Below, one piece after another: positions 2,161 through 63,802 of a stretch of 64,000 nt of DNA. The notes below the pieces were generated by a model. It ran no database searches and was not told the DNA's origin. It saw nothing but the letters and a program-made list of their open reading frames with translations. Position 1 is the first letter of the stretch. Each line of letters starts with the position of its first letter. This DNA is from Nilaparvata lugens (lineage: Eukaryota > Arthropoda > Insecta > Hemiptera > Delphacidae): NCBI RefSeq assembly GCF_014356525.2, contig NC_052507.1, positions 34,227,513 through 34,291,512 of the forward strand, read 5' to 3'. A program made the translations under genes and the position numbers.

Positions 2161-2410
2161 GATAAAAAAATAATATTTTCAACTTATAACAAGTGATCCA
2201 AAATATTAATTCGATCGGCTAGGATGGCCTCAAAAGTCACTACAATAGAACATTTTTGACCGAACGTAGTGAGGTATATTTTTTAACTCGAATTTTCTTT
2301 TGTCTGTCTCTATGTAATGCTGATTATGGAATCTGAAAGAAAATTATTCAATATACTGAGGATAAATAAATAAAAGTGATAGTAAAATCAAGCAATCAAC
2401 CCAACACAAA
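2161..2410. other. Spacer upstream of the helicase element
   Basis: No gene. Contains a GACCGAACGTAGTGAGGT block near 2257; a similar block (GACCGAGCGAAGTGAGGT) recurs near 37290, so it belongs to a dispersed repeat. The rest may be 5' UTR of the element; its 5' boundary could not be fixed. Confidence 0.4.
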
Positions 2411-4258
2411 ATGATTACTTTAAATTCCATCCTTAACAAAATTGATAGTTTCTACGTAACAACTAATACTGATAAAAGTAAGATAAGTCTGGTTTATAAT
2501 TTTGGTGAGAGGGTTGATGTTATGATATCTTTTACAAAAATAGGAAATAGTATTAAAACATCCAAAGGACTTTCTCTGCTTAGAAATAAAAAATATTTCT
2601 CTCTTGAAGAATGGAATCACCTGAATGTGTTACGAGATTCTAATTGTATAAGAGTTTTGTTTTCTAATAAAAACATTCCTATTTTCATATCAAATGATGG
2701 TGAAAATGGGGTACTTATTGATCTTTTGAATAGAATAAATGATTGGAGTAAATTCAATTACCCTTTGATTATAGGAATTGATTCTTTTAACAATCTTGGT
2801 GAAACTTATTTTGATATTCCTGCCACTGAACTCTTGAGTACTGTCATAGGAGCTAGAGATTTGAAGTTTATTTTTTATTATCGAGGTTATTGTGAAATTA
2901 ATTTTCTTAATATACCTAAGCTATCTGATAGTCCGGGAGTTGAGTACCCTGTAGGATTCTTTGAAGGTAATAATAAACGTGAAGCATTCATAAACTCTAT
3001 GATTGAATTACGGACTCTACTTCAAAACACTGATAACGAAAATGCTAAAATATATAAAAATATTCTTCTTAGGATCACGCATAGAAACATGTCAATATCA
3101 GGTGATGAACTAATAAGCGTCCTGAATAACAATATGAACATCTATGATAATAATTTGAAAAGATTCCTATTCAAAACAAACTCTAAATACCGAATGGGAT
3201 ATTGCTTGGAGCAGGGTGGAAGTTACGTAGAATTTCAAGAGGATACTTTAAAATTCTCTACTAAAGAACGATATGTTTTAGTCACACGTAATACTACACT
3301 TATGCTGAATAGCGAATTAATAAAAACTATAAATAGAATAACTCTTCATGAGTGTAAACTTCCTAAAATAAAGTGGTATGACGGTGTTCCCGGCTGTGGT
3401 AAATCTTACTTTATAGTCTCGCATCATGAGCCTGGCAAGGATCTAGTACTCACTCAAACACGGGCAGGTATTAAAGCAATCCGTGAAACTGTCATTGAAA
3501 GGTATGGTCGAAAACATTGTAATCGTCTTAAGCTTGATTACAGAACAGTTGGCTCATATATAATAAATCATAATCAGAATAAAACATACGATAGAGTTTT
3601 TATTGATGAAGCTCTACTTATGCATGCGGGTTACATCGGGTTTATTGCTAACTTGAGTAAGGCCTCAGAAATGATTGTTGTTGGTGACGCAAACCAAATA
3701 CCCTATATTGAGAGAAGTAATTATGCCACAAGATGGCATAAAATTTCAGAATTCTGCGAACCTTTTACAAAGCAAACGGTAACTCGTAGATGTCCTATCG
3801 ATGTTTGTTTTGTCCTTTCCACTGTCTATGAAAATATTACGACGATTAATGAAAGAGCTATCTCAATTCTGCCTACTTACAGAAATGGGGAATACCATCT
3901 GATACAACCCGACACTTTGATATTGACATTCACCCAAGAGGAAAAACTTATGGTGGGTGATACTATAAAGTGGAGAGAGGATGTTGCACTTCACACAATC
4001 CATGAAGCACAAGGGCTAACTCATAAAAATGTTATTCTAATCAGAATTAAGTACAAGGAGAATGAAATCTATAACAGCATGCCCCATGCGATTGTCGCTT
4101 TGTCTAGACACACTGAAACTTTCAGGTATTTAACAACCAGTCTAGTAGATGATGCTGTGGACAAACTAATTAAGAAACTTAAATTCATAGATAGTGAGGG
4201 GCTTGTTAAATGGAACAAGGAAAAGAGAAGTGGACCTGATGATATAAGTTATGAGTGA
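2411..4258 (+). CDS. ORF1 of LINE-like element: virus-type superfamily-1 RNA helicase
   Basis: Intact 615-residue frame. From about residue 318 it carries all superfamily-1 helicase motifs in order: Walker A GVPGCGKS (325-332), Ia LTQTRAG, Walker B DEA (399-401), GDANQ (425-429), TVTRRCP, the TIHEAQGLT motif and ALSRHTE (563-569). This set is typical of the Viral_helicase1 family of alphavirus-like positive-strand RNA viruses; the activity would be NTP-dependent RNA unwinding. Residues 1-310 match nothing I recognise and contain no CCHC knuckle, coiled coil or RRM that would mark a normal LINE ORF1. The stop overlaps the start of the reverse transcriptase frame by 8 nt, which argues the two form one transcription unit. 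No disabling lesion is visible. Alternative: an endogenous viral fragment next to a LINE by chance, which the overlap makes less likely. Confidence 0.85.
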   Translation: MITLNSILNKIDSFYVTTNTDKSKISLVYNFGERVDVMISFTKIGNSIKTSKGLSLLRNKKYFSLEEWNHLNVLRDSNCIRVLFSNKNIPIFISNDGENGVLIDLLNRINDWSKFNYPLIIGIDSFNNLGETYFDIPATELLSTVIGARDLKFIFYYRGYCEINFLNIPKLSDSPGVEYPVGFFEGNNKREAFINSMIELRTLLQNTDNENAKIYKNILLRITHRNMSISGDELISVLNNNMNIYDNNLKRFLFKTNSKYRMGYCLEQGGSYVEFQEDTLKFSTKERYVLVTRNTTLMLNSELIKTINRITLHECKLPKIKWYDGVPGCGKSYFIVSHHEPGKDLVLTQTRAGIKAIRETVIERYGRKHCNRLKLDYRTVGSYIINHNQNKTYDRVFIDEALLMHAGYIGFIANLSKASEMIVVGDANQIPYIERSNYATRWHKISEFCEPFTKQTVTRRCPIDVCFVLSTVYENITTINERAISILPTYRNGEYHLIQPDTLILTFTQEEKLMVGDTIKWREDVALHTIHEAQGLTHKNVILIRIKYKENEIYNSMPHAIVALSRHTETFRYLTTSLVDDAVDKLIKKLKFIDSEGLVKWNKEKRSGPDDISYE

Positions 4259-6473
4259 CACTGAAGAAGTTCTGAATATTTTAGAAACAGAAAATGAAAC
4301 AGATGTAATCGACGATTATTTGAACTATCATTTTCTCGAGGACAGAAATAAAGATGCTGAGTGTTTCAATATTATGTCTATGAATATACGTAGTTTGAAT
4401 GCTAATTTCGATCAGTTCATTTGCTGCCTCAAATTTGTCGATCGTTTGACCAGTCTCATCAACCAATGCAGAAAGGTAAAAGAGATACCTAACAGACTTC
4501 GTCCCCTGAAGCCCTGGATATCTGAAGGCATCATAAGATCAATAATCACGCGGGACAAAATGCATTCTAGACTCAGAAGAGATCCTAATAACAATATATT
4601 AAAGAATGAATATAAAGTTTATCGTAATGGTTTGAATAAGATCATAAATCATGCAAAGGAAGTCTACTATAAAGGGAAAATTGAAAATTGTAATAACAAC
4701 AGCATGAAGTTGTGGAAGTGCATAAACGAAGTTATAGGTGAGGACAGTATCAACGACAAGAGTACTGAACTTGATGCTCAATCCCTCAACAATTATTTCA
4801 CAAATGTGGGTAAATTACAAGCTCAAACTATCAATATCCCTGATAATACTGGTGATCGATTTCCTGAAATACAGATCGATAACACGTTTTTTATGAGACC
4901 AACGTGCCCAGTTGAGGTTGAGGCAACTATTAAAAATCTAAAGAACAACTGCAGTCCTGGTATTGATAGTCTAGGTAATATTACGCTGAAGAAAATAGCC
5001 AATTTTATATCTCAACCTCTCTCTTTCATTTTTAATAGATGCTTTGAGGAGGGATATTTTCCTGAGCACCTCAAGTCAGCCAAAATAAAACCTCTATTCA
5101 AACAAGGTGACCCGACTAATCCCTGTAATTATAGACCGATTAGTCTTATCAGCAACCTTGCTAAAATAATGGAGAAACTAATAAAGTCAAGAGTTGTTTC
5201 TTTCTTGAATCTTAACAAAATAATCAACAAGAACCAATTCGGTTTCCAAAATGGTAAAAGTACATCTGACGCTCTAATAAAATTCGTCAATACTTTATCT
5301 GATAAAATAAACTCCAATAAGAAAACTATTGCAGTCTTCCTGGATATACGCAAAGCTTTTGATACAATACCTCATAATACTTTGTTCAATAAACTGGAGT
5401 CCTATGGTTTCAGAGGAGTCTCGCTTAAATTGTTCAAAAGCTATCTGAGTAATAGAACCCAGTCCCTAACCATAAATGATCAATCTAGTGTAACTAACTT
5501 AACTTCTTATGGTCTTCCTCAAGGTACTGTACTTTCTCCCATCCTTTTCATACTCTATGTAAATGACTTTTTAAATTTAAGACTTCTAAACTCAACTGTG
5601 ATATCCTTTGCAGATGATACTGCAGCTATTTTTCACGGTAATTCATGGAATGAAGTTCATACCATAGCTGAAAATAATATGCTTTTAATCAAGAAGTGGT
5701 TAGATAAGAATACCTTGAGTTTAAATATTGAAAAAACGAATTACATAACTTTCTCTGCAAATAGAGTAGGACAGCCCAACGAGAATCAAGATTTGAGACT
5801 CCATTCTCAGTGCAATTTAAACTTGGGTAATTGTGATTGTCCCACCATTAAAAAAGTCAATAATACTAAGTACTTGGGAATCATAATTGATGAAAACCTT
5901 AAATGGGATGTTCATATTAAATACATATGTAGAAAAATTAGATATTTATCTTTTAAATTTTACCAAGTTAACAGAATTCTTAATAAGAACCACCTGAAAA
6001 TGATGTATCATGCTCTAGTCAAGTCAATTCTGCAGTATGGCATAGTTGTTTGGGGAGGCTGTTTCAACTGTCATATTGCTGAATTATTTGTAGCACAAAA
6101 ACTGATAATTAAAACTATATTAAGCAAACCCAGGCTCTATCCAACGGATATGGTTTTTAGTGATTTTGAGGTCATGACTATACGTCAATTATACATAAAA
6201 ACCGTAATTGAGTACTTAATAAAATATAGATCCGATTTTCCTCTCACAATAAACTCTACACTTAATTATTATAATCTAAGGGCCACTGCTAACAAATATG
6301 TAACCTATAACACTAATATTGAATGTATAAGGAGGCAGTTAATTTACATAGGTACTAAAATAATAAACCTCATTCCAAATCACTTTCTCATGGACAATAA
6401 GATCAGCGGAAAAATTAAACTGGATATAAAAAACTGGACATACAGTAATTTCTTCTTCCATTTAGATATATGA
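4251..6473 (+). CDS. ORF2: non-LTR reverse transcriptase lacking its endonuclease
   Basis: Intact 740-residue frame starting at the ATG inside the ORF1 stop region. Residues 39-61 (NIMSMNIRSLNANFDQF) are the opening of an APE-type endonuclease, but at about residue 62 the sequence jumps to the post-endonuclease linker (LKPWISEGI). Roughly 200 residues that should hold the catalytic Glu, Asp and His are absent with the frame kept. The RT domain is complete: YRPISLISN, QFGFQNGKST, FLDIRKAFDT, GLPQGTVLSP and FADDT (453-457), followed by the thumb and a YLGIIIDENLKW block. CR1/Jockey-group character by motif recall. Such a protein could copy RNA but not nick its own target, unless it uses pre-existing breaks or an endonuclease supplied in trans. 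Confidence 0.9.
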   Translation: MSDTEEVLNILETENETDVIDDYLNYHFLEDRNKDAECFNIMSMNIRSLNANFDQFICCLKFVDRLTSLINQCRKVKEIPNRLRPLKPWISEGIIRSIITRDKMHSRLRRDPNNNILKNEYKVYRNGLNKIINHAKEVYYKGKIENCNNNSMKLWKCINEVIGEDSINDKSTELDAQSLNNYFTNVGKLQAQTINIPDNTGDRFPEIQIDNTFFMRPTCPVEVEATIKNLKNNCSPGIDSLGNITLKKIANFISQPLSFIFNRCFEEGYFPEHLKSAKIKPLFKQGDPTNPCNYRPISLISNLAKIMEKLIKSRVVSFLNLNKIINKNQFGFQNGKSTSDALIKFVNTLSDKINSNKKTIAVFLDIRKAFDTIPHNTLFNKLESYGFRGVSLKLFKSYLSNRTQSLTINDQSSVTNLTSYGLPQGTVLSPILFILYVNDFLNLRLLNSTVISFADDTAAIFHGNSWNEVHTIAENNMLLIKKWLDKNTLSLNIEKTNYITFSANRVGQPNENQDLRLHSQCNLNLGNCDCPTIKKVNNTKYLGIIIDENLKWDVHIKYICRKIRYLSFKFYQVNRILNKNHLKMMYHALVKSILQYGIVVWGGCFNCHIAELFVAQKLIIKTILSKPRLYPTDMVFSDFEVMTIRQLYIKTVIEYLIKYRSDFPLTINSTLNYYNLRATANKYVTYNTNIECIRRQLIYIGTKIINLIPNHFLMDNKISGKIKLDIKNWTYSNFFFHLDI

Positions 6474-6799
6474 CTCGAGATTTCTGCTCCAGCATTGTTT
6501 TTTCATTTTTCAGTGGACTCGCTTACCTTTATTTTGAGTACCTATTCCTCTGTTTTCTTCCTTCCCCCATTTCTCCCTTACCTTTTTCCCTCATTACTTC
6601 TCTTCTCTTCTTTGCCTGCCTATTACATGGGAAACCATAGTTGGCTAGGTATCTTCCTCTCTTTTTTTCTCTTCTCCAACACACCCAACCACAAAGCCCA
6701 TGGTTTTTTATATTTGTAACATTTTATTCTGTTTTTATTTTTAATCAATTCAAAATAATTATTGGTGAAATTGTGAGTGAAATCCACTCTGCACGGCAT

Positions 6800-13160: not shown

Positions 13161-13882
13161 AATATTCAACTAATTACGAAAATTGATATAAATTTTACGG
13201 TCACGGGAAGAGGATTTGATTGATTTTATCGTATTATACTCTCAAATTCACTCATCAATCTACACTTGTCTTGTATACTATCTATTATAGACCTACACTA
13301 CCATAGACTCAATATAAACTTGAATGAATATTATGGCTTATCATGGGAACTACATTTTTATTAATATATTTTAGTGAGTTATCTCATAGGGATAGAATTA
13401 TTTAGCATAAATGGATGTTTGATTGTTAGTAATAATGGAGAAAGATGTAGTTCTTAAGGGATCTTTACTGCAGAATTCGTCCATCAAATTGATTTCCTCA
13501 CATCACATTGGCTATCGATGAACTGTAATCAGCCGTTTAAAATGTTGAGAATAACTTATCGTGTGATAATACTGGTGCCCTAAATAATTTTCGAGGAGAT
13601 TTTTGAAATGCTATCAACCAATAACTAAAAAGCTTGGACTTTTTGAGAATATTCTTACACTCAAGGAGGATACCTTCATATTAGTGCGTGTAATTCACTA
13701 TTTCAATCTACATCAGTCTTGTCTGCTCGACCATAAATTGAGATATAGTATAAATAGTGACACCGTGTCCAGTATAGTATAACAGTGCCCAGCAGTTTCT
13801 ATCTATTTTCACTTAATGTTCACTTTAAGGCTGTGCAGAGGCTAAAAATAAACTTTCTACTGGTGATATTTTTCATAGTTTT
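13161..13882. other. Intergenic, no gene seen
   Basis: AT-rich sequence without a supported frame or recognisable repeat. Confidence 0.5.
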
Positions 13883-14439
13883 TCGATTTGTATATCAAGC
13901 TATCAAAATGAAAAAGTTTTCTCAGGAAAACATTTTTTTCTGATCATTACTTTTTGAGATATGAGCGCCTATAGTTCAAATTTTTGGGACAGAACATTTC
14001 AAATTCGGTAAGAAATAAATCCATGAGATTTAGAGGATAGATTCTTCATGTTGTTGTTGATCTAGTAAAACTAAAAGTTTCTGAAAATATCAATTTTTAA
14101 GAGAGTTGTTCAATTTACTAAAAATAACCAAAAATAACTTTTATTATTATTTTTCAGTTATCTTAGTTGAGTTAATAACTTTCAGTTGAGTCATTTTTGG
14201 TAGATTGAATAAATTTTTCAAAAATCTATATTTTCAGAAAATTTTTGTTCTACTAGATCAACAATACCATGAAGAATCCATCCATTAAGTCTCATGGATT
14301 TATCTCTTACCGAATTTGAAATGTTCTGTCCCAAAAATTTAAACTTTAGGCGCTCATATCTCAAAAAGTAATGATCAGAAAATAAATGTTTTCCCAAGAA
14401 AACTTTTTCATTTTGATAGCTTGATGATATACAAATCGA
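13883..14439. mobile_element. Foldback (long hairpin) element
   Basis: Left arm 13883-~14120 (TCGATTTGTATATCA..., GGGACAGAACATTTCAAATT, ...TTCAATTTACTAAAAA) is mirrored by ~14205-14439 (TTTTTGGTAGATTGAA ..., AATTTGAAATGTTCTGTCCC, ... TGATATACAAATCGA). About 235-bp arms surround a loop of under 100 bp. There is no coding capacity: the open frame on the minus strand at 14218-14442 is one arm. A transcript through it would form a long dsRNA hairpin. Confidence 0.8.
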
Positions 14440-14637
14440 CAAACTTATATTTTGATTTGCCCAAGTATTTTGCTGTTCTTGTTCTCACATACAATTTATT
14501 ATCAATTCGAAAACCAAACTTAAGTTAGTTCATTTAAAACTTATTTCTCCATAATCTTGAAAAGTAACAATAAAATTGATACTATGCAAATAAAAGCTAC
14601 TATTAATTACATTAGTAACTACAAGAAATGTAATTAC

Positions 14638-17858: not shown

Positions 17859-18337
17859 ATGGCTCATACAAGGAACAGTGTATTTATCTATGCAATTCTG
17901 ATCATCTCACTTCCATTTTTAGTTGATTGTGGAGGAAACGCAAGATCATCTCCAATCAATGGTTCTATTTTGAAATTGGAAAGTGGTAGCAGAGACAAAA
18001 ACTATGATAAAATGATCAGTCCAGTTGGATCTTCCATCATGAGCTCTGCTTCAACAATCGCAACATTCAGTGGTGAAAATGGAAGTTTAACAACTGCTGA
18101 TCCTACAGAGTGGTTTGGGGGTCTGAGAAAAGAACCCTCTGCTTTGAGTGATGTTGATTCCAAATCTGAAGCATCAACATCAACGAGTTCTTCCTTTGAA
18201 GCTTTCAAAGAATTTGCAAGGAAAACTTCAGCTGACGGTGAAGGGGTATCTTGCACATGTGTGCCCTACTATCTATGCGATACCAATGCAGCTATCCTCG
18301 ATCCTCAACAATATCAAAATGACAATCCAAAAGTAAG
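17859..18337 (+). CDS. Multi-CLIP serine protease homologue, coding exon 1
   Basis: ATG lies immediately after the acceptor AATTCCAG, so translation starts at the first base of this exon. Residues 7-24 form a hydrophobic signal peptide (VFIYAILIISLPFLVDC). A Ser/Thr-rich linker follows to about residue 130, then the first half of CLIP domain 1: CTCVPYYLC (Cys 132, 134, 140). The exon ends GTAAG|GTAGGC, phase 2. CECVPYYLC-type openings are typical of clip-domain serine protease homologues of the PPAF-2/CLIPA group, secreted haemolymph cofactors of prophenoloxidase activation. Assignment by motif; the specific orthologue is not known. Confidence 0.85.
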
Positions 18338-18436
18338 GTAGGCTACATTTTTGTTCACACAAGCTAGTAGTTGTGCATCTAAAGTGGGATTGTAGAGGCT
18401 GATTATGTTCAATTATATAAATTAATATAATAGTCC

Positions 18437-20593: not shown

Positions 20594-21117
20594 GTGAAAG
20601 TTCAGTTCAAACTGCTTCATTATAATGTAAGAAGCCTGAGAAATAAAACAAATGAGTTAGCTGTTGAGCTGGAGAACTTGGAGGAGAACAGAGAGACATC
20701 GGGAATGATTGACTTTTTATGTTTCACAGAGACTTGGCTGAAAGAGAAAAATAGTGTGAAAATTCACAATTTCCACCTAATCTCATTTTTTAATAGACAA
20801 GAGAAAGAGGGGGGAGGAGTAGCAATCTATGCCAGAGAGGGAATTTCAGCTACAAGACTGGAGTTAAAACAGGCTTGTGAGGTTGATTTTGAGGTGGCAA
20901 TGATTCAACACATGGAATGTGCTGTCATATGTATTTACAGACCCCCAGATAATAACTTCATGATTTTTATCGACAAGCTAGAAGAGCTCCTATTCAGCCT
21001 GGCAAATAAGTTTGAAGCTTATATTGTTGTAGGAGATTTTAATGTAGATTTTCTGGGAAATTCAAGTAAGAAGAAAAAGCTAGAGAGATTTACAGTTCAT
21101 GGTCTGACAAGCATCAT
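20594..21117 (+). pseudogene. LINE ORF2 endonuclease domain, interrupted
   Basis: APE-type endonuclease: LLHYNVRSLRNK, FLCFTETWL (catalytic Glu), GGGVAIYAREG, CIYRPPD, VVGDFNVDF (Asp/Asn). The frame runs open to 21117, where the BEL LTR begins. The His-containing C-terminus of the domain and the start of RT are missing; the element resumes after 26847 well inside RT. The frame before the break is intact. Confidence 0.85.
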
Positions 21118-21567
21118 TGGTCTGGCCAGAGAATTCGAACTGTAGCACCAAAATGCCAGACTGCAGTTCTGCCAATAGCAGGCTTGTTTGCGCCAGCACA
21201 GATCGTCCTGCTGTTTTTGGCCTTGTCGATGTAAAAGCCCCAGTCTATTTTGTTTTATCAGCACGTCTTGTTGCAAGACCAAAATTGTGTGTTTGTCATG
21301 TAATTTCGATCAGAAATTTCTTGTAAATGATTGTTTGGGTGTCGTGTGTGTGAATTATGAGTATAACAGCATAAATAGTGTTGGATTGAATTAATTTGAA
21401 TCGGATTTGAATTTATAAAGAATCCAGTTTGAGCTTTGTTCGAAACACAGTGCATAGCCTGCAAGTTGAACGCGAAAAGACAGCCCGGAAGCCAGAACCT
21501 GTCTTATTCCCAGATTTCATCCCACCCTGAACCTGATCAAAACACCTAATAAAGGCTTCGAAGGGCA
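21118..21567 (+). repeat. 5' LTR of BEL/Pao element
   Basis: 450 bp, TG...CA ends. It differs from the partner LTR at about 16 positions by eye (roughly 96% identity) with no length difference, so the insertion is not recent. Confidence 0.93.
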
Positions 21568-21985
21568 TGTTGAGAATGGTCTGATCTATGCTCAACTTAA
21601 GTTTGTTGTAGCCTTGTTCTAGAGCAAGGTTTCTTGTCAATTTGTATTTGTCTGAAATTAAATTTATTTCAGTTAAAATTGTAATTCCCTGAAACTAGGC
21701 GCATTGTGCTCTTTTCTCAGGAATTTGTTTGTTTGTTGGAATTTGTATTGTCCATTTTTTTTATACATGTTAGTGAAGGTTAATCACCAGCATGATTTTG
21801 TTTGTTCAATTCAACAAGTTATCGTTTGTTTGTGAGTTGTTGGAAGAACATTATATAATCATATAGTTTTGTCTTCAGCAGTAACTTATCTTGTGAATTG
21901 ATAATCAAAGTTTAACTTTGATAACTTACTAGTCGTGATTCTTCCTTTCATCTAGTTTTGAACTCATTCTTGTTTTATTTGTCTG

Positions 21986-24340
21986 TTGTTTGTATTGTCG
22001 GGGCTGAATTGTTTTGTGTATGAGTTCAAGGTGGAGGAAAAAATACAGAAACAAATCAGGGTGCATCGCGCTAAACTGGAACAATTGTATGCCAGATTGC
22101 AAAGAATTTATGAACTGTCTAAAAATGTCTCTGATCCAAAAGTTGCTGAGCAATTTTCAATCTTGTATCCTCGGGTGTCTCAGACCATTTCGGATTATGA
22201 AAAGACAGAATTAGTGGTTCATGAGTTGGAACTTGAGTTGAATAAAGATCATGTTGTAGCATTCAACGACTCACACCTAGATCTGTTTCAGTATATTGAA
22301 GTAGCGGCTAACACTCTCAAACAGAAAGAGGCGACTGATGCTATTGCTCAATCTTTGGCAGCTACAGCAGCTAGTGCACAGCTGGTCATGTCCGAGTCAG
22401 TACTGCCTAAAATCGACCTTCCGAAATTTGATGGGAACCAGACTCAATGGTCGGTGTTTTATGAACTATTTAAGGCATTGGTACATGACAACAAGAGTTT
22501 GAACGATCAGCAGAAGGTCCAATATCTTGTAAGTAGACTTACTGGACAAGCAGCAAATATTTGTCGTCATTTGCCACCATTGGCTAACAATTATCAAATA
22601 ATTTGGCAGGCATTATTGACCCGCTATAACGATCCACGGGTGCAAGTCGATGCCTATTTCAAACAAATTTTTGAATTTCGTCCAATAAAATCCGAATTAA
22701 AGGCAGGTTGTATTGCGATTTTGGATGGGTTTTGCAGTTCAATCAATGCAGTGAAGAGATTGCCACTCACTGATTTGTCAGACTCGATATTCCTCTATCA
22801 TGGCTTGAGATTGCTGGATCCAAGTTCTCGTAGAAATTTTGAATTGGCCATCCGTGACAAGGCTATGCCAACTTATACCGATTATGTCAAATTCATTGAA
22901 AAGCAAATTAAGACTCTTCCTTCTGATAAGAAACAGACTGAATCGTTTAATATGAGGCACAAAAAGGATAATAAATCAAAGGTGTTTGTGGTTCAATCTA
23001 ATGATTCATCTGACGATGCATCTAGTAAAAATCCCAATTGTCTGAAGTGCTCAAAACCGGGTCATTGGTTAGTAGATTGTGCAAGTTTCTTGAAAATGAC
23101 TCCTTGGGATCGTTATTGTTTGATTAAAGGAAAGTTTTGTTGTTTTCGTTGTCTTGATGTGGATCATTTGAGTAGAGATTGTCGTAGTAAAACTCAGTGT
23201 GCTCAATGTCGAGAATCTCATCATTCTTTATTGCACTTTTCCAGATCAAGTTCCAATGAAGGTGTTGCGTCCTCGTCGAACTCCAAGGCAGGTGGCACAT
23301 CACCTATTAGTTGTTGTTCTACATCAAACGATGTAGAAAATTCGACCGTTGTGTTGTCGACTGTCACTGCACATGTTCGAGATTGTAATGATCAGCTTTG
23401 TGATGTTCGTTTCTTGGTTGACACCGGGAGTCAGTGTCATTTTGTTACAGCCAAATTGTGTCGGCGTTTGAGACTACCATTCCAGCCCATGAAAACCGTT
23501 GTTCGTGGATTCGGTGGTGGTACTAGTGAAGTTCGAGGTCGTACTTGTGTGTCGATTCAGTCGAAGTTGGATCCCACCGTCAAGTTTTCGATGGATGCCA
23601 CAGTGGTAGATAAAATCATTGACAAGTTGCCTTCTTGTGAAATCGACAGATCCAAACTTCATCATCTTGAAAATCTCACACTGGCTGACGACAAATTCCA
23701 CCTTCCTAGTAGAATAGATGGCATCATTGGTGCGGAGTTAGTTCCTCACTTGCTACGTGGGAGTCCTAGTACAGGTGAATCGCACGAATTGATGACTGTT
23801 AATAGTGTCTTTGGTCACATTCTGATGGGGAGAGCGCCGATTCTCACTTCAACAAGGAATGTGTCGAATTGTTTTACAGCCATCTGTAGTCCATTCGTTA
23901 GTAGTCCATCGTTGGATAGTTTTGTGGAACGTTTTTGGGAGTTGGAATCGTGCCCTGCACCAAGCTGTCAACTGAAACCGGAAGAGTTGGAGTGTGAGGT
24001 AAATTTTCGGAAGTCTGTACATCGTGTGAATTCTGGTCGTTTTGTTGTTGCCTTGTCATTTGCGGAGCCGCCCAGCAGCATGGGAGATTTGTATGCTGTC
24101 GCCAAACGCAGACTGCTGACTTTGGAGAGACGACTAGAGCTTGACAGCAATACTTGTATTTCATATCATGAAATATTGATCGATTACCTACGTCAGGGTC
24201 ACATGTCGTTTGTAGCAGATCAGACAGACCGAGGTGGTTACTACATACCGCATCACGCCATCGTGAAAGCAAGCAGCACTACCACGCCCATCCAAATTGT
24301 ATTTGATGCTGGTTCCAGAACATCATCGGTTTGTCATTGA
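21986..24340 (+). pseudogene. BEL/Pao gag-protease and start of RT
   Basis: 784-residue frame. Order: coiled N-terminal region, a DUF1759-type capsid segment (LPKFDGNQTQWSVFYELFKALV), two zinc-knuckle-like Cys/His clusters (CLKCSKPGHWLVDC, CFRCLDVDHLSRDC plus CAQCRESHHSLLH), a retropepsin with VDTGSQCHFV and a later LMGRAPIL block, then the BEL RT lead-in (YYIPHHAIVK, VFDAGSRTSS). There a one-base shift ends the frame; RT continues at 24331 in another frame. Non-functional as a polyprotein for that reason. Confidence 0.9.
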
Positions 24341-25512
24341 ACCAGGTTCTTCATGCTGGTCCCAAATTGCAAACTGACATTTTTGTTTTGTTAGTTAATT
24401 TTCGTTTGTTCCCAATCGCACTAACTGCCGACATTAAACAAATGTATCGACAGATATTAGTGGAGGATTCCTGCCGTCGTTATCAGCGTGTATTGTGGAG
24501 ATTTTCGCTGGAGGATCCAATCGAAATTTATCAGCTCAATTGTGTTGTTTTTGGTGTTTCAAGCTCTCCATATTTGGCGCTTTGCACCGTCCACCAGCTT
24601 GTAGAGGAGGATGGAAATCGTTTTCCAGCAGCCAAGGCGAGAATACCAAGAGACATGTTCATGGACGACTTAGTCACATCTGTCGCCACAGAATCAGAGG
24701 CCGCGGAGCTGTATCGTCAGTCCAAGCAGCTGTTTGAGGGAGGAGGTTTCTCGCTCACAAAGTGGACTTCAAATCCACCATCAATGTTGGAGAAATTCTC
24801 GGAGGAAGAGAAATCGTTTTCATACAAGGATTTCGAAGCAGACAACTCCTTGGCTATCTTGGGATTGAATTGGCAACCTAGTACTGATCTGTTTCAGTTT
24901 TCAGTCAAGAGTGGTGAGGTCGTCGCTACTAAGCATTCTATTCTGTCAGTGATGGCTCGTATCTATGATCCACTTGGTCTCTTCTCACCGTTTACATTAT
25001 TTCTAAAGTGTCTTGTCCAGAAACTGTGGAAATTAGGAGTGGATTGGGACGAGAAGCCGCCTGAGTCTATCTGCACTCTTTGGGAGAATTGTCAAAAAGA
25101 GTTGCCTCTATTGTTGAAATTTGCTGTTCCACGTCATGTTGGTTTGTTTCAGGATTCTCACATCAGTTTGATTGGTTTTTGTGACGCATCATTGTCTGGT
25201 TATGGTGCAGTTATCTATGTGAAGTCGCAGAAGGAGAGCGAGGAGCCAAGAGTTGTATTATTGTGTTCAAAGTCCAAGGTAGCACCATCTAAAGTTGTTT
25301 CAATACCTCGTTTGGAGTTGTGTGCGGCACTCTTGTTGGCAGAACTCATGAATTCAGTAGTCACTATTATTAGTGAACGTTGTCATGTGTCTCGTATTGT
25401 CACACTCTCTGATTCTACAGTCACCTTGTGTTGGATTAATGCTCCATCTGCAAAATGGCAAACTTTTGTTGGTAATCACGTCGCAAAAATACAGGATTCT
25501 TGTATACAGTAG
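24331..25512 (+). pseudogene. BEL/Pao reverse transcriptase and RNase H
   Basis: Begins SLNQVLHAGPKLQ, the normal continuation of the frame broken at 24330. RT palm includes ADIKQMYRQI and FMDDLVTS (the DD box). RNase H follows with IGFCDASLSGYGAVIY and PRLELCAALLLA. Ends at a further frame break near 25505, after which HVAGIENPADCLSRG is readable in another frame. Confidence 0.9.
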
Positions 25513-25656
25513 TGGATGCATGTTGCCGGAATTGAAAATCCCGCTGACTGTTTGTCTAGAGGTTTATCACCAGTTGAGCTTGTGAACTTCCCGTTGTGGC
25601 TCTAAGGTCCATCATGGATAGCAGAGGACGAATGCGATTGGCCCGTCCGAACTGAA

Positions 25657-26217
25657 ATGGAAGAGATAGTGGATCCACCAGAGGCGAAAAAACCGTCAGT
25701 GTTGACAGTCACAAAATCTCCTGATTGTAACAGCAATGCAGTATATTCATTGATTGGTCGTTGTTCAGATTATGGTCGTCTTTTGAGAATTGTAATTCTT
25801 GTTCTCAAATTCTTACGAATCTTACCCCAATCAGAAGAATCAGATTTTGATGTTGCTGAGAGGTATCTATGTAAAGTGGTACAGAAGATACATTTTTCAT
25901 CTGAATTTGTGCAATTAGAGAAGGGAGAAGATTGTTCTATGCGCCTACGTTGCCTGTCTCCATTCATTGATAAAGGCGTGATTCGTGTCAGCGGTCGTTT
26001 GTCTCATGCTGGACTTGAATTTGAGACTTGTCATCAGATGATCTTACCAAAATCCGACGCTTTCGTATCGATGTTAATTGATTATCATCACAAGAAGAAT
26101 TGTCATGCTGGGATTTCGTTATTGTTGTCCTTGATCAGACAGAAATTCTGGATACTGTCTGCTCGCTCTATTATTCGTATTTGTGTCTTTAAGTGTAATC
26201 GTTGTTTCCGTATTTGA
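25657..26217 (+). pseudogene. BEL/Pao integrase N-terminal (zinc-binding) fragment
   Basis: Contains IRVSGRLSHAG, an HHKKNCHAGISLLLSLIRQKFW His pair and CVFKCNRC, the HHCC finger that precedes the integrase core. The frame stops at 26217, and within 180 bp comes the right LTR. The DDE core and C-terminal domain are deleted. Confidence 0.85.
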
Positions 26218-26397
26218 CCTAGTAACAAAATTATATCCACTCCCAACTTGATAGTTGTTGTCATTGTTGCATTTTTTCTTTTGTGTTGTTTTTTGGTGTT
26301 GGTGTTTTGTTCCTTTTGGCATGTCTGGATTTTTCCTTTCCTTGGTTTTTTCAGTTTTGTAACTTGGCTGAAAAATAGTTTTTCAGAGGCGGGGGTA

Positions 26398-26847
26398 TGG
26401 TCTGGCCAGAGAATTCGAACTGTAGCACCAAAATGCCAGACTGCAGTTCTGCCAATAGCAGGCTTGTTTGCGACAGCGCAGATCGTCCTGCTGTTTTTGG
26501 CCTTGCCGATGTAAAAGCCCCAGTCTATCTTGTTTTGTCAGCCCGTCTTGTTGCAAGACCAAAATTGTGTGTTTGTCATGTAATTTTGATCGGAAATTTC
26601 TTGTAAATGATTGTTTGAGTGTCGTGTGTGTGAGTTATGAGTATAACAGCATAAATAGTGTTGAATTGATTTAATTTGAATCAGATTTGAATTTATAAAG
26701 AATCCAGTTTGAGCTTTGTTCAAAACACAGTGCATAGCCTGCAAGTTGAACGTGAAAAGACAGCCCAGAAGCCAGAACCTGTCTTATTCCCAGATTTCAT
26801 CCCACCCTGAACCTGATCAAAACACCTAATAAAGGCTTCGAAGGGCA
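26398..26847 (+). repeat. 3' LTR of BEL/Pao element
   Basis: 450 bp, same length as 21118-21567 and about 96% identical by eye. Open frames inside both LTRs are not genes. Confidence 0.93.
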
Positions 26848-26872
26848 AGTAGACAAGATTGGATTAAATCTG

Positions 26873-28226
26873 GTGAGTTTTTGCTCTTTTTTATTGTTCA
26901 TTAATGCAGAGTTTAACTGTACAAATAACCTGGCACAAAAAACAATATCCAATTACCTGGAGAATAATATGATTTTGTCTGAATGTCAATTTGGTTTTCG
27001 TTTGGGAAAATCGACAATCCTTGCAGTAAATGACTTCATTAACCAAGTATATGACTCACTTGACAAAGGGAAAAAAGCTCTAGGACTCTTTGTAGACATG
27101 AAAAAGGCATTCGACAGCCTTAATCATGAAACTCTGATGGAGAAAATTCATTTTTATGGTATCAGAGGGTTGGCTTTTGAATGGCTGAAGTCTTTTCTTA
27201 GTGAAAGGTCCCAATTAGTTGAGATTGAAGAGAGAAATGGGGGAATCATCAACTACAAATATTGGTCAGAAATCCGGCAATTGGAAAAAGGAGTGCCACA
27301 GGGAACTATACTTGGCCCGATATTGTTCTCACTGTATATTAATGACTTGCCCTGAAATTTGCCCTCAACCGTAAACAGTGTATTATTTGCTGACGATGCT
27401 AATTTCCTACTGACAGGTGATACATTTGAAGAATTAAAAATTGAAGGAGAAGAAGTAATCAAGTGCATGAAGGAGTGATGTGAGGCTTATGAGTTAATAG
27501 TCAACGTAAAGAAAACATCGTATATGAGCTTCAATATTGGCTATTTAGACACACCCAATAACTTTAATTTTGCTGTGGATTCAACAAGTATAATGCCAGT
27601 GGAAGAATGTGGATTCTTGGGAATCAATGTTGATGTAAGACTGAAGTGGAACAGTCACATTGATCAGGTGGTAAAAAGGCTCAATGCAGCGGGGTTTGCA
27701 ATATCAAGATTGATAAGGGAGGTGGACCAGAGAATAGTTTGAATAGCATACTATGGATATTTCCAGCCAGCTCTAACGTATGGCCTGATATTCTGGGTGC
27801 GGCACCCGCTTCATTGATGGCCTTTAGAGTGCAAAAACGGCTACTGAGAATGATGTTTAGGAAGCCACCAAGAACCCCATGCAGGGAAGCTAAGATCCTG
27901 CCGTTGCCATGTCTGTATATCTTGGAGGCTGCATTGTATAGATTTTCCCGCAAGGATGAGTGGACTACAGGCGCTACCGTACATGGCTACAACACACGGG
28001 CAAGGAATATGCTGAGACTCCAACCTCATTGAACAAGATTTTTTGAAGCTAAGCCAGAGCATGTCAGTCGAAGGATCTTAACGCACTACCAGTGGAAATT
28101 CTCGATACTTCAAAAAACATTCAAGAACATTCATACAGAAGAACATTCAAGAGACTACTGAGGAGTTGGCTACAAGAGAGATGTTTCTACAGTTTGCTGG
28201 AGTTTTTCTCATATACAGTGTGAGAA
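26873..28226 (+). pseudogene. CR1/Jockey-like LINE reverse transcriptase, continuation of ORF2
   Basis: Continues the LINE cut at 21117: QFGFRLGKST, LFVDMKKAFDSLNHETL, GVPQGTILGPILFSLYINDLP, then after an in-frame stop near 27354 LPSTVNSVLFADDANFL (catalytic ADD), and thumb motifs (ECGFLGINVDVRLKWNSHI). Stops or shifts occur near 27354, 27478 and 27740. The 3' end carries SRRILTHYQWKFSIL-like C-terminal sequence to about 28226. Confidence 0.85.
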
Positions 28227-33882: not shown

Positions 33883-34015
33883 GTAAACTATTTTCTAAAT
33901 GAATGACAATAATTTTTTGTGAGGATTGTATATACAATATATTATGATAAATTGTATCCAGTATGCACAATCTAAGGAACTGCTGCCTATAGACATTCTG
34001 GACAATATATATATA

Positions 34016-36229
34016 CAGAGTGTTTCAGAAGTAGTGTCGAGAATTTTAGGGTATTGTACCTGGATGCTAGGAGACTACAAATGTCATATTTGAAGTGTCC
34101 AAAACTCAGCGGTTATCCTTATAGCTGCCATTTTGTTTTTTTCACTTAAAACTTTTTATCTCAAGAACGAAATGTTGTATTGATCTGAAATTTGGCATGA
34201 ATATTTATGCTATAAAGACTCAACTATAAAAAATAAAAAAAAAATTTTCGTTGAAATTTTTCAAAATGGCGGCCATTTTAAATTTTTGATGGCGAATATC
34301 TCGAAAACCGTCCATTTTACAGAAAATTTACGGAAGACAAAAAAGTTAGCAAATTTTTTCACGATTCCAATGATACCTAATTTATTAAGATTGGTCGAAG
34401 AATAACAGAGAAATTAATTTTTTTGTACTGCATGCATGACCACTTTTCACCATTAAAAGTAAAGAACCAGATGTAGTGCTTCCTATTTCTTAGTCTCACG
34501 TTTTCTAGGTCTTATTTCTATCTTAAATTTCCAGTTTCAATATTTTCTTACGTTGCTTCTACACAAATATTTAATTATTGTAATGGAATTTAGTTTGCTG
34601 GAGTACACCGATATTCACTTCATGTATGGAGCAGCTCATGGCAATTCGACCGAAGCAAGAAGAATGTATGCAGCTGCATTTTCAAACCGCCGTCTCCCTT
34701 CCGACAAGGTGTTCACAAGAACTCACAATCGGCTGAGAGAAGTTGGTTCATTTGAACGGAACAGGGTAATTGCTGGTAGGCCTCGAGCAGTTCGAAATGT
34801 TGCTTTTGAAGAGGAAGTATTGCAGAAATTCGATTTCAATCCTAGAACGAGTACGAGAGCAGTTGCAAAGCAAATCAATTCAAGTGCTTCTTCTGTGTGG
34901 CGTGTACTAAACAAGGAAAGACTTCACCCCTTCCGCTTTCAAAAAGTTCACTCATTGGTTGAACGCGACTATGAGCCAAGAGTAAACTGTGCCCGTTGGT
35001 TTCTTCAGCAAGACATCCAACCAAATTTTCTAGAAAATGTGTTATTTACCGATGAGTCCAGCTTTACAAGAGAAGGAATCTTCAACTCTCGCAACAGTCA
35101 CGTCTGGGCCTTAGACAATCCTCATGAGGTCAAAGTGCGTGGTTATCAGCATAGATTTTCGCTGAATGTTTGGACGGGTATCTTAGGTAATCGCGTGATT
35201 GGACCATACATTCTTCCTAATCGTCTGAATTCTCCCACGTACATTACTTTTTTAAGAGACATACTACCAGAACTTTTGGAAGATGTGCCTCTTGCAAACA
35301 GATATAATATTTGGTTTCAACATGATGGTGCCCCTGCTCATTTCAGAAATGTTGTTACGGACTTTCTGAACATGACCTATCGTCAGCGGTGGATTGGGCG
35401 GGGTGGACCAGTACCGTGGCCCGCACGTTCACCTGACCTCAACCCTTTAGATTTTTTTTTCTGGGGCCATATGAAAGACCTTGTTTACAGCACGCAAGTA
35501 GAAAACGAAGAAGACCTTGTGGCAAGAGTGGTTGCTGCAGCAGGTGCCATTCAAGATGATGAAAATGCTTTTATAGCAGTTCGACGGTCCATGATTGAAA
35601 GGTGCAGACTGTGTAATCAAGTTGAAGGACGGCATTTTGAGCAATTGCTGCATTAGTATCAGTGAACCGATTTGAGTGAAATTAATATTTTTCAATGTAA
35701 AATAAAATTTGGAGGAAAGTTATTCTTGAATATTTCTGTAATAAGAACGGTTTTCATGAAATTATAAAAAAAATTAATATTGATCTTTAAATGGTGAAAA
35801 GTGGTCATGCATGCAGTACGAAAAAAATTAATTTCTCTGTTATTCTTCGACCAATCTCAATAAATTAGGTATCATTGGAATCGTGAAAAAATTTGCTAAC
35901 TTTTTTGTCTCTTGTAAATTTTCTGTAAAATGGACGGTTTTCGAGATATTCGCCATCAAAAATTTAAAATGGCCGCCATTTTGAAAAATTTCAACGAAAA
36001 AATTTTTTTTATTTTTTATAGTTGAGTCTTTATAGCATGAATATTCATGCCAAATTTCAGATCAATACAACATTTCGTTCTTGAGATAAAAATTTTTAAG
36101 TGAAAAAAACAAAATGGCAGCTATAAGGATAACCGCTGAGTTTTGGACACTTCAAATATGACATTTGTAGTCTCCTAGCATCCAGGTACAATACCCTAAA
36201 ATTCTCGACACTACTTCTGAAACACCCTG
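34016..36229 (+). mobile_element. Intact Tc1/mariner-type transposon with ~440-bp terminal inverted repeats
   Basis: 2,214 bp flanked by TA on both sides (34014-34015, 36230-36231), the IS630/Tc1/mariner target duplication. Left arm 34016-34454 and right arm 35790-36229 mirror each other almost fully: CAGAGTGTTTCAGAAGTAGT at the left tip, ACTACTTCTGAAACACCCTG at the right tip. Between them lies one open transposase gene. Close arm similarity plus an intact ORF suggests recent activity. It sits in CLIP intron 3. Confidence 0.93.
34583..35656 (+). CDS. Tc1/mariner-family transposase (DD41D spacing)
   Basis: 357 residues from the first ATG. The N-terminus (LEYTDIHFMYGAAHGNSTEA) is a DUF4817-type helix-turn-helix; a second DNA-binding part follows (STRAVAKQINSSASSVWRVL). 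The catalytic triad is FTDES (Asp 157), FQHDGAPAHF (Asp 248) and SPDLNPLDFFFWG (Asp 290). The last two are separated by 41 residues, the spacing of the DD41D group (rosa-like) rather than classic DD34D mariner. The protein cuts and pastes its own element at TA sites. No stop or shift; all three acidic residues are present, so it may be functional. Confidence 0.9.
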   Translation: MEFSLLEYTDIHFMYGAAHGNSTEARRMYAAAFSNRRLPSDKVFTRTHNRLREVGSFERNRVIAGRPRAVRNVAFEEEVLQKFDFNPRTSTRAVAKQINSSASSVWRVLNKERLHPFRFQKVHSLVERDYEPRVNCARWFLQQDIQPNFLENVLFTDESSFTREGIFNSRNSHVWALDNPHEVKVRGYQHRFSLNVWTGILGNRVIGPYILPNRLNSPTYITFLRDILPELLEDVPLANRYNIWFQHDGAPAHFRNVVTDFLNMTYRQRWIGRGGPVPWPARSPDLNPLDFFFWGHMKDLVYSTQVENEEDLVARVVAAAGAIQDDENAFIAVRRSMIERCRLCNQVEGRHFEQLLH

Positions 36230-36912
36230 TATATTACAAGTAAAGTGTAATATGTGTTACAAAGACAGTAGCAACCGGGTATGAGGGAAATAAAAGTTAG
36301 AACCAAATTGAACTTATTCAATAGAACTATTTTATACAACAAGAACAGCTCAATAAGTGCTACCAACCTTCTGAAGATTTCAGAAACTTTTTATATTTGA
36401 AAGAATTACATGATATTTCATGGTCGGGGTGAAATATCTATGTTTGTGTGAAAGCTTTCATCTATTAGGCTATCCATAGTTATCAACTTTTTGTAATAAT
36501 TTTGAACTATTTTTACTCTCTCCATTAATTTTATTTTTACCTTAAAATAGAATTGATTAGACTCAAATTTTGACTTGAGTATAGAAAAAAGAGTTACACT
36601 AACAACAATCATAATTATATACTGATTGGGAACTGTGGTGCAAATATTATATTACTCTAACATTTGTTTATAAAAATTGACTGGAAATTATAATTTTTGT
36701 TTTACTAATAAGATTATCAATTAAATAGTTATGAAGTTTTGTAATGATCGCAGATGCACAGCTAGATTATGGTAGTATTCAGATTGATTCTTGTTCAATC
36801 CATATTATTATTAATAAGCCTACTAGGCATTGCTTTATAGCATAAATTATAAATCATGCACTCAAACAAAATTATTGTTTCTAATATTTAACATATTGTT
36901 TTTGAATTTCAG
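36230..36912. other. Remainder of CLIP intron 3
   Basis: No gene or repeat recognised; ends in TTGAATTTCAG. Confidence 0.6.
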
Positions 36913-39795: not shown

Positions 39796-40844
39796 CAGTA
39801 AAATACGTGGTATTTATAATAATATCGATAATATAGATAATAATATCGTAGTACTGCTTTCTAATTTGCACTCTTATCACACTATGGCGCTCGAAACAAT
39901 TTTATCAAAACCTATTGTTTTGACTTGCGCTGAAACTAAATTTACACCTTAGTTCTCTTAATTCTAAATATTAAAATGTTTGAGATTTAACCAATTTGAT
40001 TACAGCAATTTATTCAGGAAATCAATATTTTTCTACGTGAATTAATTATAATGCCACTGTCATAATACGGCTATCATATTGCTGTCTATGTTTTGAATGA
40101 AATGTGATAATTAACTCATCATTTTGTTGTCATATATGTGCTTAATCATGCACTCTATGACAGACAAAGATATTAAAATAAAATATTCATACTATTACAT
40201 AATAAAATAGATCGTATATAAATGTGTATGATCATAATTCTATGCTATAATTTATCATAAGTTATGAATGTCAAAAACTGAGATGAATCATAGATTACAA
40301 TAATGTTAACAGTGGCATTTTCCTGAAAAATCATAGCGTGCAGTTTTTGCTGTTTTCCACAGTTAATATTCTCCATCCAGGTTGATAATATACCTCCAGT
40401 TAAGGCAAATATATATGACGGCTGGGGCATCAAAAAGTTATAAATCGGGTTTGTTGAGTTGAAACTTTCTTTGATTCTCTCTGTAAAGTAGCTCATCTTC
40501 CGCTCTTACTAGTTGAATCTACATATCTAAACAGTCCAATATGAAAATTTAGTACATTCTAAAGATGAAGGCCATGCAACATACAAATTAAGGAAGAGTA
40601 AGCATGGATAAAAAGTAGGAAAATCATGAAAGTGTTTTACATGACACCCTCATAATCACAAGTTGATCAAGTAGGGTAGAAAATATTGAATATTCAATAT
40701 TGAAAACCAGATGTACAGTCCATTGGAGATGGAAAATTCGTAAATAATCATGAACCAAGTAGCCTACCGTATAAGATGAATTGATAAAGATGATTCATCA
40801 TCTTCTATTATTTGTTAACACATCGATTCTTCAACTCCACTCGC
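39796..40844. other. Intronic spacer, no gene seen
   Basis: AT-rich. The minus frame at 40245-40496 shows no family motif and no splice context for a protease exon. Confidence 0.5.
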
Positions 40845-41738
40845 ATCTTGTCATTCATTACACAAGGGCCTTAATGAGAACTTTATAAATGGAAGTAAAG
40901 CATGAGCAGAATCATACTGGAATTACAAGGTTGGCAGAAGCTTTTCTTGATGTCGATTAATGTTGATTGTTATTGATTTTTATTCGGGCACCAAAAGAAT
41001 AGATCAATTTATATTTATATGTTGAAGCATTCAAATTAAATCTATTGAAGTATTGAACATTATTTCTTATGACTTGGCATTCACAGATTTAGTTGGGTGA
41101 AGTTATTTGAAAAATGTACCTGATTATCAACTTTATAGTTTTTATACCATTCTAGTTCATTGTGATCATTGAAGGGTTGAAGTGAGTTAGTTCAAGTGAA
41201 TTCTAGTACAAGTATTTTGTGGTTATAATGGGCTCTTCTTTATTTTCTATCGATGTTTTGCTCCAGTAGAGAAAATTTAAAATGTTGGTTTTACATTTTA
41301 TAAGCTTTATAAATAATATAAATTAACGGTAATATAAATTTGATAAGTCCAGTATTAAATTAATCGATGCTGTTTTTCAGTATATCGCTTCACATCAATG
41401 TTACATGCACTGTTTGCAATTCATCACTATTCTCTCAAGAATTAGTTTGTTATGAATTTCATATCTGAGAATTTAAATTTAAATGCTATTTGGATGGCGT
41501 TCACATTTTTTACAATAATTTTTACATTGAAGAGTCAAGCAATTTAATCCATTTGGAAGTAAAAGGAAATCACATTGCAATTTGAACAGTGGATAGTCAC
41601 TTTGGAATTCAGTTTCTCAATTCATTTCGGCTTGATACTATCATTTTTAATTTGAGTTGATCAGAAAAATGCATTATATAATATATATATCAGTTTGACT
41701 AATCTCTTATCACAGTCTCGTTTTCATTCATAAGCATG
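40845..41738. repeat. 894-bp direct repeat flanking the BEL nest, left copy
   Basis: Begins ATCTTGTCATTCATTACAC and ends TTCATTCATAAGCATG immediately before the BEL LTR. It matches 62909-63802 in the same orientation and equal length, with under ten differences seen by eye. Non-coding. Confidence 0.9.
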
Positions 41739-43753: not shown

Positions 43754-44466
43754 CGAGGTTGTGATTTTGACAAAGTTTATCAGCGTAAATAAGTGAAGAA
43801 ATCGATGAATAATTGAATCACAATTGAAGAATAGAATAAACGAGTTAATTTGAAGGAATAATTCACTTTTTAAAAACGTTCCATAGATCAGATGAATATG
43901 GATGAAAAGTTTAGACCGGGAGCGAAATGCACTCTCCGACTATACTTGATCAAGAGACAAGGAAACCGCTAATGCTCGGCTGAAAAAGGGACATGCCGGA
44001 AGTGTTTGAAACGTAAGTAAAACGTTTACAAACGTTTGGTGAAAAGGTAGCAAATATCTAGAAAGTAAGATGCCTAAAGACAAAATAAATTGCAAAAAAT
44101 TGAATAATAAAAATATTAAAATTGAAACGACAAATAACACGACGAATAATATAGAAAACCAACTTGATTACGGCAGTGCCGTAGAACCGTGACTGTGACG
44201 TCACCGGACAGCGCAGATGGACAAAATGACGACATGAGGTCTACGTAGTAGTGGAATGAGTAACAAGTGGAACCATTCCAATAAATGCTTTGTCAGATTT
44301 TACATAAACTGGGCCCCTTGTGTCATATGGGGTATGGCACAATAAAAAAGTAAGAATATGTAAAATCTGGCAAGGCAATTGGAAATTGAAAACTGGGCCC
44401 CATGTGAGAACCAGGGGAAAAACAATGAAACCTGAAAATACGAAATGAACCATAAGAGCAAGGGAA
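43754..44466. other. BEL 3' internal non-coding region
   Basis: No frame with a recognisable domain. A tract with ACTGGGCCCC recurs at 44308 and 44391. No clear purine-rich priming tract was identified next to the LTR. Confidence 0.5.
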
Positions 44467-62906: not shown

Positions 62907-62908
62907 CG

Positions 62909-63802
62909 ATCTTGTCATTCATTACACAAGGGCCTTAATGAGAACTTTATAAATGGAAGTAAAGCATGAGCAGAATCATACTGGAATTACAAGGTTGGCA
63001 GAAGCTTTTCTTGATGTCGATTAATTTTGATTGTTATTGATTTTTATTCGGGCACCAAAAGAATAGATCAATTTATATTTATATGTTGAAGCATTCAAAT
63101 TAAATCTATTGAAGTATTGAACATTATTTCTTATGACTTGGCATTCACAGATTTAGTTGGGTGAAGTTATTTGAAAAATGTACCTGATTATCAACTTCAT
63201 AGTTATTATACCATTCTAGTTCATTGTGATCATTGAAGGGTTGAAGTGAGTTAGTTCAAGTGAATTCTAGTACAAGTATTTTGTGGTTATAATGGGCTCT
63301 TCTTTATTTTCTATCGATGTTTTGCTCCAGTAGAGAAAATTTAAAATATTGGTTTTACATTTTATAAGCTTTATAAATAATATAAATTAACGGTAATATA
63401 AATTTGATAAGTCCAGTATTAAATTAATCGATGCTGTTTTTCAGTATATCGCTTCATATCAATGTTACATGCACTGTTTGCAATTCATCACTATTCTCTC
63501 AAGAATTAGTTTGTTATGAATTTCATATCTGAGAATTTAAATTTAAATGCTATTTGGATGGCGTTCACATTTTTTACAATAATTTTTACATTGAAGAGTC
63601 AAGCAATTTAATCAATTTGGAAGTAAAAGGAAATCACATTGCAATTTGAACAGTGGATAGTCACTTTGGAATTCAGTTTCTCAATTCATTTCGGCTTGAT
63701 ACTATCATTTTTAATTTGAGTTGATCAGAAATATGCATTATATAATATTTATATCAGTTTGACTAATCTCTTATCACAGTCTCGTTTTCATTCATAAGCA
63801 TG
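62909..63802. repeat. 894-bp direct repeat flanking the BEL nest, right copy
   Basis: Same length and orientation as 40845-41738. Differences include TTAATTTTGATTG versus TTAATGTTGATTG and ATAGTTATTATACC versus ATAGTTTTTATACC. Confidence 0.9.

Follow-up and report, generated by a model that had tools for sequence, protein, structure and literature searches.

A virus-type SF1 helicase ORF between gag-like and endonuclease-reverse transcriptase ORFs in a Jockey-type LINE of Nilaparvata lugens

The window, i.e. the whole stretch of 64,000 nucleotides of Nilaparvata lugens DNA (contig NC_052507.1) that was analysed, contains a helicase ORF next to a reverse transcriptase (RT) ORF, and this unit very probably derives from a multi-copy Jockey-type LINE with three cistrons in its complete form, of which it is a young and defective copy. 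This degree of confidence covers the anatomy and not what the helicase does. Most descriptions of LINEs give one or two ORFs; the complete element has a gag-like CCHC ORF, then an ORF with a macro-like domain and an SF1 helicase, and then an endonuclease (EN)-RT ORF, with overlapping stop and start codons. We consider it probable, at a lower level of confidence, that this is a previously undescribed LINE architecture, in which gag, a captured virga-like block (macro-like domain and complete helicase) and EN-RT are linked by overlapping codons and maintained by purifying selection across divergent subfamilies, and that the helicase is a regular working part of the life cycle, neither accessory nor relic. 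The label 'Jockey-type' follows the usage for published planthopper elements in PMC5563155.

All features of the window copy are on the plus strand and are given in window positions. The open helicase frame runs from an internal ATG at 2411 to 4258 (615 aa) and represents the middle cistron, and the RT frame at 4251–6473 (740 aa) represents the last cistron, without an endonuclease. The longest stop-free stretch in the region is 741 codons, compared with 177 codons as the top value among 300 base shuffles. The helicase stop and the RT start overlap by 8 nt (4251–4258). What remains of the LINE copy spans 2320–6740, as delimited by blastn against sister copies, and lacks the 5' UTR, the gag ORF, EN and the 3' tail. 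The original prediction had described two intact frames with an 8-nt overlap; both frames are indeed open and the overlap is present, but they are not intact, as EN was lost, the helicase start was frameshifted and the ends are missing. Rfam (at gathering thresholds) and ARAGORN gave no matches within the window, and scans of viral_contigs and genome_contigs yielded no relative.

Compared with sister copies, 729 nt (243 codons, in frame) were deleted at 4432/4433, and the blastn blocks on either side overlap by 2 nt there. The EN query is covered over 41 residues in the window copy versus 187–271 of its 271 residues in the 36 other loci examined, all of which have homology to the APE-type endonuclease that is absent from the window copy, and no EN Pfam match was found in the window RT ORF at E <= 0.01. 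Among these 36 loci and the 60 RT rows listed, the deletion was seen only in the window copy, which is also the only one of the 60 RT rows among the matches listed that is contiguous from query residue 1. The helicase start is damaged as well. Residues 1–15 of the related helicase ORF P0001 map to 2326–2370 (frame 1) and residues 16–641 to 2378–4252 (frame 2); the first codons of the original ORF are thus at 2326–2370, in a frame that differs from the remainder, and the corresponding ATG is the start codon in sister loci. The ATG at 2411 is therefore an internal codon. By blastn, homology to sister copies starts at 2320 or 2321 in 28 of 29 helicase loci (at 2431 in the remaining one) and ends at 6740 in five of seven ORF3 loci (at 6675 and 6751 in the other two), so both element ends are absent from the window copy. 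A 3' UTR remnant is left at 6474–6740, and in sister copies it continues into a TAA/AATA-type tail.

The window helicase differs from that of locus L003 by just three synonymous and two nonsynonymous changes, and the difference from locus L002 is about 0.3% over 2115 nt. With so few changes, open frames are expected from youth alone. This bears on the suggestion that the unit is domesticated, in which case the host would have retained a helicase-RT pair without EN for a function of its own, e.g. antiviral cDNA synthesis. Frames that are open over 615 and 740 codons and a deletion that is in frame would agree with such a function, but youth accounts for the former, the 5' region and the 3' tail are gone, the helicase start is shifted and the EN-less arrangement is found in one of the 60 RT rows among the matches listed. 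Domestication is therefore very unlikely. As gag, EN and both ends are missing, the window copy is not expected to be capable of autonomous movement and is most likely functionless.

The 1.085-Gb genome to which the window belongs was searched for sister copies, so that the counts given for them refer to a single genome. The well-preserved ones encode gag (426 aa), helicase (644 aa) and EN-RT (~984 aa), in that order. The gag/helicase junction has an 11-nt overlap in 27 of 29 sister loci, and in 17 of 29 the helicase frame is open and overlaps the RT frame by 8 nt, which the other 12 do not show. RT/EN sequence of the same family lies 3' of the helicase in all 29 other helicase loci examined, and helicase sequence lies upstream in six of the seven ORF3 loci; the exception, L035, starts inside EN. 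Among the matches listed, 31 of 60 ORF3 (RT) rows have a helicase row at most 3 kb upstream and 29 do not, and 5'-truncated and unpaired rows also occur in the genome. Two divergent subfamilies of the same genome keep the order gag, helicase, EN-RT; one or two copies were compared for each, frameshifts occur in some of these, and part of L047 is masked. A division of L046, L047 and L048 into three subfamilies was ruled out, since L047 and L048 are 94–97% identical and were therefore counted as one.

The window copy alone would be compatible with chance adjacency of an RNA-virus helicase remnant and a LINE, and such remnants are reported from insect genomes. Chance adjacency is nevertheless extremely unlikely, since the helicase has RT/EN of the same family behind it at all 29 other loci examined, gag is found at a fixed 79 nt before the helicase in 24 of 40 rows among the matches listed, and the divergent subfamilies have the same order. 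Although unpaired rows exist, the recurrence of the pair at other loci is the opposite of what a chance neighbourhood would give, and it bears out the original prediction that a virus-type SF1 helicase and an RT form a pair in a LINE-type unit.

The gag-like ORF of the sister copies lies directly upstream of the helicase ORF and contains two canonical CCHC knuckles; its zf-CCHC match (E 8.9e-4) is under the profile's cut-off. Among the matches listed, a gag row precedes the helicase in 33 of 40 rows, and the seven helicase rows without one include the window. The helicase ORF is thus not the first ORF of the element in sister copies. The original prediction held that it replaces the usual RNA-binding protein, which would make the element a two-ORF LINE with the helicase ORF in place of the gag ORF1. 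The window itself does have two ORFs, and PMC5563155 describes planthopper contigs with the helicase ORF as ORF1, but the sister copies, like two other subfamilies, have a CCHC gag ORF upstream, which was merely lost from the window. Replacement of gag is therefore highly improbable in this family. The element has the helicase as an additional gene in the middle, with the first gene still in place, which corrects the picture of a helicase taking the place of ORF1.

The last cistron encodes a non-LTR RT. The RT domain (PF00078, with the FADD box) is located at 5121–5888, the RVT_1 match of the window RT ORF has an E-value of 2.3e-37, and its best PDB matches include LINE-1 ORF2p and R2. Exo_endo_phos (PF03372) was found in 9 of 14 aligned A2 members. 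All four sister copies checked share a common 5' end, and TAA/AATA-type 3' tails were seen. A clear target-site duplication was not found in these four copies, which gave short matches only, and around the window copy there is no direct repeat of 9–16 bp that would fit one.

The helicase ORF has a Pfam Viral_helicase1 match (E 5.2e-37), and the SF1 motifs are present in this separate ORF adjoining the RT ORF. A motif II pattern missed 6 of 29 proteins. Two of these are fragments or have no aligned sequence in this region, and the others escaped an overly narrow pattern; in alignment A1, the DE pair of motif II is nearly invariant. In the structure model, residues 171–604 (2921–4222) form a complete tobamovirus-type SF1 helicase with N-terminal part, stalk and core, which is the whole helicase architecture as seen in ToMV (3vkw) and in a model of Atrato virga-like virus 1. 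The list of viral folds matching the model is headed by virga-like replicases. Different from these replicases, there is no RdRp and the helicase is a cistron of its own in a retrotransposon. The N-terminal domain (residues 1–170, 2411–2920) is macro-domain-like in its predicted fold, with moderate support. The helicase probably originates from the replicase of a virga-like plus-strand RNA virus, as already proposed in print, and the second domain suggests that the capture from the virus exceeded a bare helicase domain. Since helicase dN/dS is 0.13–0.42 in 13 informative pairs, which all share L003 and are hence non-independent, the helicase looks to be under selection and seems to be no chance neighbour. 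The pair of L006 with L003 has zero synonymous and two nonsynonymous helicase changes.

From this anatomy, a single RNA would carry the gag, helicase and EN-RT ORFs, and a ribosome ending gag could reinitiate at the overlapping helicase ATG and then at the RT ATG. The helicase may join a particle of gag, RNA and RT, and we tentatively regard the unwinding of structured RNA or of RNA:DNA hybrids in the course of target-primed reverse transcription as its most likely activity. Alternatively, its main role could be to suppress RNA silencing (siRNA/piRNA) and not to assist reverse transcription. Such an advantage was put forward in PMC5563155, a transposon-encoded SF1 helicase is reported to have weak suppressor activity in a plant assay (PMC6338049), and low dN/dS is compatible with suppression, as with any function. 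Because the reported activity is weak and comes from a plant system, we consider a suppressor role rather unlikely and the role in reverse transcription the better candidate. An RNA-virus-type helicase cistron between gag and pol, across divergent subfamilies, makes it testable if the protein aids target-primed reverse transcription or shields the element from RNA silencing.

An SF1 helicase ORF beside a Jockey-type RT was published in 2017 for Nilaparvata lugens, Homalodisca, Gerris and Ceuthophilus (Morozov, Lazareva and Solovyev, PMC5563155). Those elements resemble the present family in that a virus-like SF1 helicase is encoded separately, in an ORF that overlaps a Jockey-type EN-RT ORF or lies shortly before it; a planthopper genome holds dozens of copies, and the affinity is to virga-like viruses. 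That paper calls the helicase ORF1, which has 'a single domain related to SF1H' and overlaps ORF2 by 2 nt, whereas the present family has a gag-like ORF first, an added N-terminal macro-like domain and an 8-nt overlap. TRAS LINEs (R1 clade) of Lepidoptera likewise contain a captured viral SF1 helicase, but there it is fused C-terminally to the RT within ORF2 (Lazareva et al. 2015, PMC4686597), and here it is a separate upstream ORF. This contrast had been drawn correctly in the original prediction, but the separate ORF by a Jockey RT had already been published in 2017. Jockey-superfamily LINEs with a type I ORF1 (RRM and CCHC) likewise have a gag-like CCHC ORF1 and EN-RT last (Metcalfe and Casane 2014, PMC4120745); the abstract gives two ORFs, and the main text has no mention of a helicase or of three, third or additional ORFs. 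In the openly accessible papers among the top matches of the literature searches, neither the three-cistron order nor the macro-like domain was found to be described.

Protein P0149 combines an RNase H domain with a helicase and matches residues 163–602 of the window helicase ORF, not the macro-like domain; it is presumably of the TRAS type. Proteins P0012 and P0016 (helicase ORF) and P0034 (RT ORF) all come from contigs with a length of 6347, which hints at linkage. Among named proteins, the closest one belongs to Laodelphax striatellus.

The helicase frame (2411-4258, 615 codons) has a match to PF01443, the family of viral SF1 helicases (E 5.2e-37), and the nearest solved structures by sequence are helicase entries of the tomato mosaic virus replicase (E 3.9e-32, residues 277-595). 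The RT frame (4251-6473, 740 codons) matches RVT_1 (E 2.3e-37). The longest stop-free run was 741 codons, against at most 177 in 300 base shuffles. The original prediction of two intact frames with an 8-nt overlap held for the open frames and the overlap but not for their being intact, since an endonuclease (EN) block is absent and the helicase start lies in another frame. In the databases, many of the nearest relatives of the RT frame have lengths of 978-995 aa; compared with them, the window's frame is missing an uninterrupted block between residues 66 and 67. The Pfam domain Exo_endo_phos occurs in nine of 14 aligned members and was not found in the window's RT frame. Comparison with other loci (blastn) showed that 729 nt are absent at 4432/4433. 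EN homology covers 187-271 of 271 query residues in all 36 other loci (35 copies, because L003 and L034 represent a single copy) versus 41 residues in the window copy. Of the 60 RT rows listed, the window's alone runs without a break from query residue 1. In P0001, the closest database relative of the helicase (82% identical), residues 1-15 correspond to 2326-2370, in a different frame from residues 16-641.

In blastn comparisons, homology to sister copies starts at 2320 or 2321 for 28 helicase loci and at 2431 for the remaining one of the 29, L023. At the 3' side it ends at 6740 in five of seven loci and at 6675 and 6751 in the remaining two, and the sister copies run on beyond this limit to TAA/AATA-type tails. 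The window copy is 99.67% identical to its sister L002 over 2115 nt (blastn). Most likely, it is a dead derivative. An antisense RT fragment of another LINE (1588-2109), about 33% identical to the window RT frame, lies directly upstream of its remaining 5' end.

Sister copies possess an additional first cistron. Beyond the 5' limit of the window copy, L003 has 161-1407 nt of upstream sequence in common with 27 of the loci compared with it. In L003 this stretch encodes a 426-aa gag-like frame that carries two canonical CX2CX4HX4C knuckles (the zf-CCHC match, E 8.9e-4, falls just short of its cut-off) and extends 11 nt into the helicase ORF. This junction was present as a string in 27 of 29 loci, which concerns the string and not the openness of gag in each; the helicase frame is open from the junction ATG through the 8-nt overlap with the EN-RT cistron, ORF3, in 17 of 29. 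Among the matches listed, a gag row lies no more than 1.5 kb upstream of 33 of the 40 helicase rows that reach query residue 1, at a distance of exactly 79 nt in 24 cases, and the window is among the seven without one. Four copies with different flanks share the element's 5' end; no clear target-site duplication was found in them. Searches of the window's own genome, a 1.085-Gb assembly with the window placed at C4:34227513-34291512, gave, as lower bounds, at least 77 rows for the helicase (71 of 1325 candidates scored) and at least 60 for the RT frame (60 of 55,384 scored). Among the matches listed, 26 of the 60 RT rows are open over 983 aa or more. The gag search gave at least 104 rows (98 of 1499 scored).

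The order gag, helicase, EN-RT recurs in L046, L047 and L048, divergent loci found via their gag, which is 44-51% identical to that of L003. Frames are interrupted in all three, and part of L047 is masked; L047 and L048 are 94-97% identical and were counted as one subfamily. Read off the frames, gag and helicase overlap by 14 nt in L046, and helicase and RT by 8 nt in L048; the helicase and RT frames of L046 do not overlap. Nine gag rows among the matches listed (e.g. C7:36809869-36811131) show 44% identity and the same 422-aa open frame. By sequence, they point to another putative multi-copy subfamily, of which L046 is the one copy read.

Helicase dN/dS was calculated for L003 versus 21 other copies, so that the pairs are not independent. 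It was 0.13-0.42 in the 13 pairs with at least 10 synonymous changes; the remaining pairs had few changes (L003 versus L006: zero synonymous, two nonsynonymous). Changes in six gag pairs were too few to judge selection, and the L003-L048 comparison is close to saturation at synonymous sites (pS 0.67 and pN 0.26 in the helicase core).

Order, overlaps, copy number and constraint are established for the element. All three cistrons would reside on one RNA, the second and third probably being translated through termination-reinitiation, as is known for SART1. Tentatively, the helicase could act within the RNP during reverse transcription; that it is a silencing suppressor seems rather unlikely. 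Reinitiation for LINEs is cited in the accessible part of PMC5563155, which also reports such helicase ORFs adjoining a Jockey-type ORF2, dozens of them in Nilaparvata lugens and further ones in other species. The helicase-RT pairing is thus already known from print. There, the helicase ORF is named ORF1, has a single SF1H domain and, in one contig, shares a 2-nt overlap with ORF2; in the main text as accessible, 'macro', 'X domain', 'three ORF' and 'tricistronic' are not mentioned, and 'gag' and 'CCHC' occur in general remarks about LINE ORF1s. The accessible text of PMC4120745, which surveys Jockey-superfamily ORF1s, does not contain the word helicase. As far as our literature searches reach, neither the gag-helicase-RT order nor the macro-like domain has been described.

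Elsewhere in the window, an LTR element of BEL/Pao type is nested within another LINE (20594-27796; EN part 20594-21145, RT part about 26930-27796). Its two LTRs, 21118-21567 and 26398-26847, are 96.4% identical, and it has Peptidase_A17, DUF1759 and an integrase zinc-binding domain. A DDE_3/DUF4817 transposase-like ORF (34553-35656) lies between inverted repeats of 450 bp (34011-34459 and 35785-36234, 97.6%), and the whole stretch 34011-36234 resembles a DNA transposon of the kind that has long terminal inverted repeats. A long near-identical pair (40837-43766 and 60885-63802, about 98-99%) has internal repeats; further repeat pairs are 46001-47154/55396-56550 and 50732-52526/56390-58190, and 13877-14445 is self-complementary (inverted match, 578 columns, 84% identity). 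Lastly, an ORF at 17859-18341 has a weak match, below the cut-off, to CLIP_1, a clip domain of serine proteases, and is perhaps a host gene exon.
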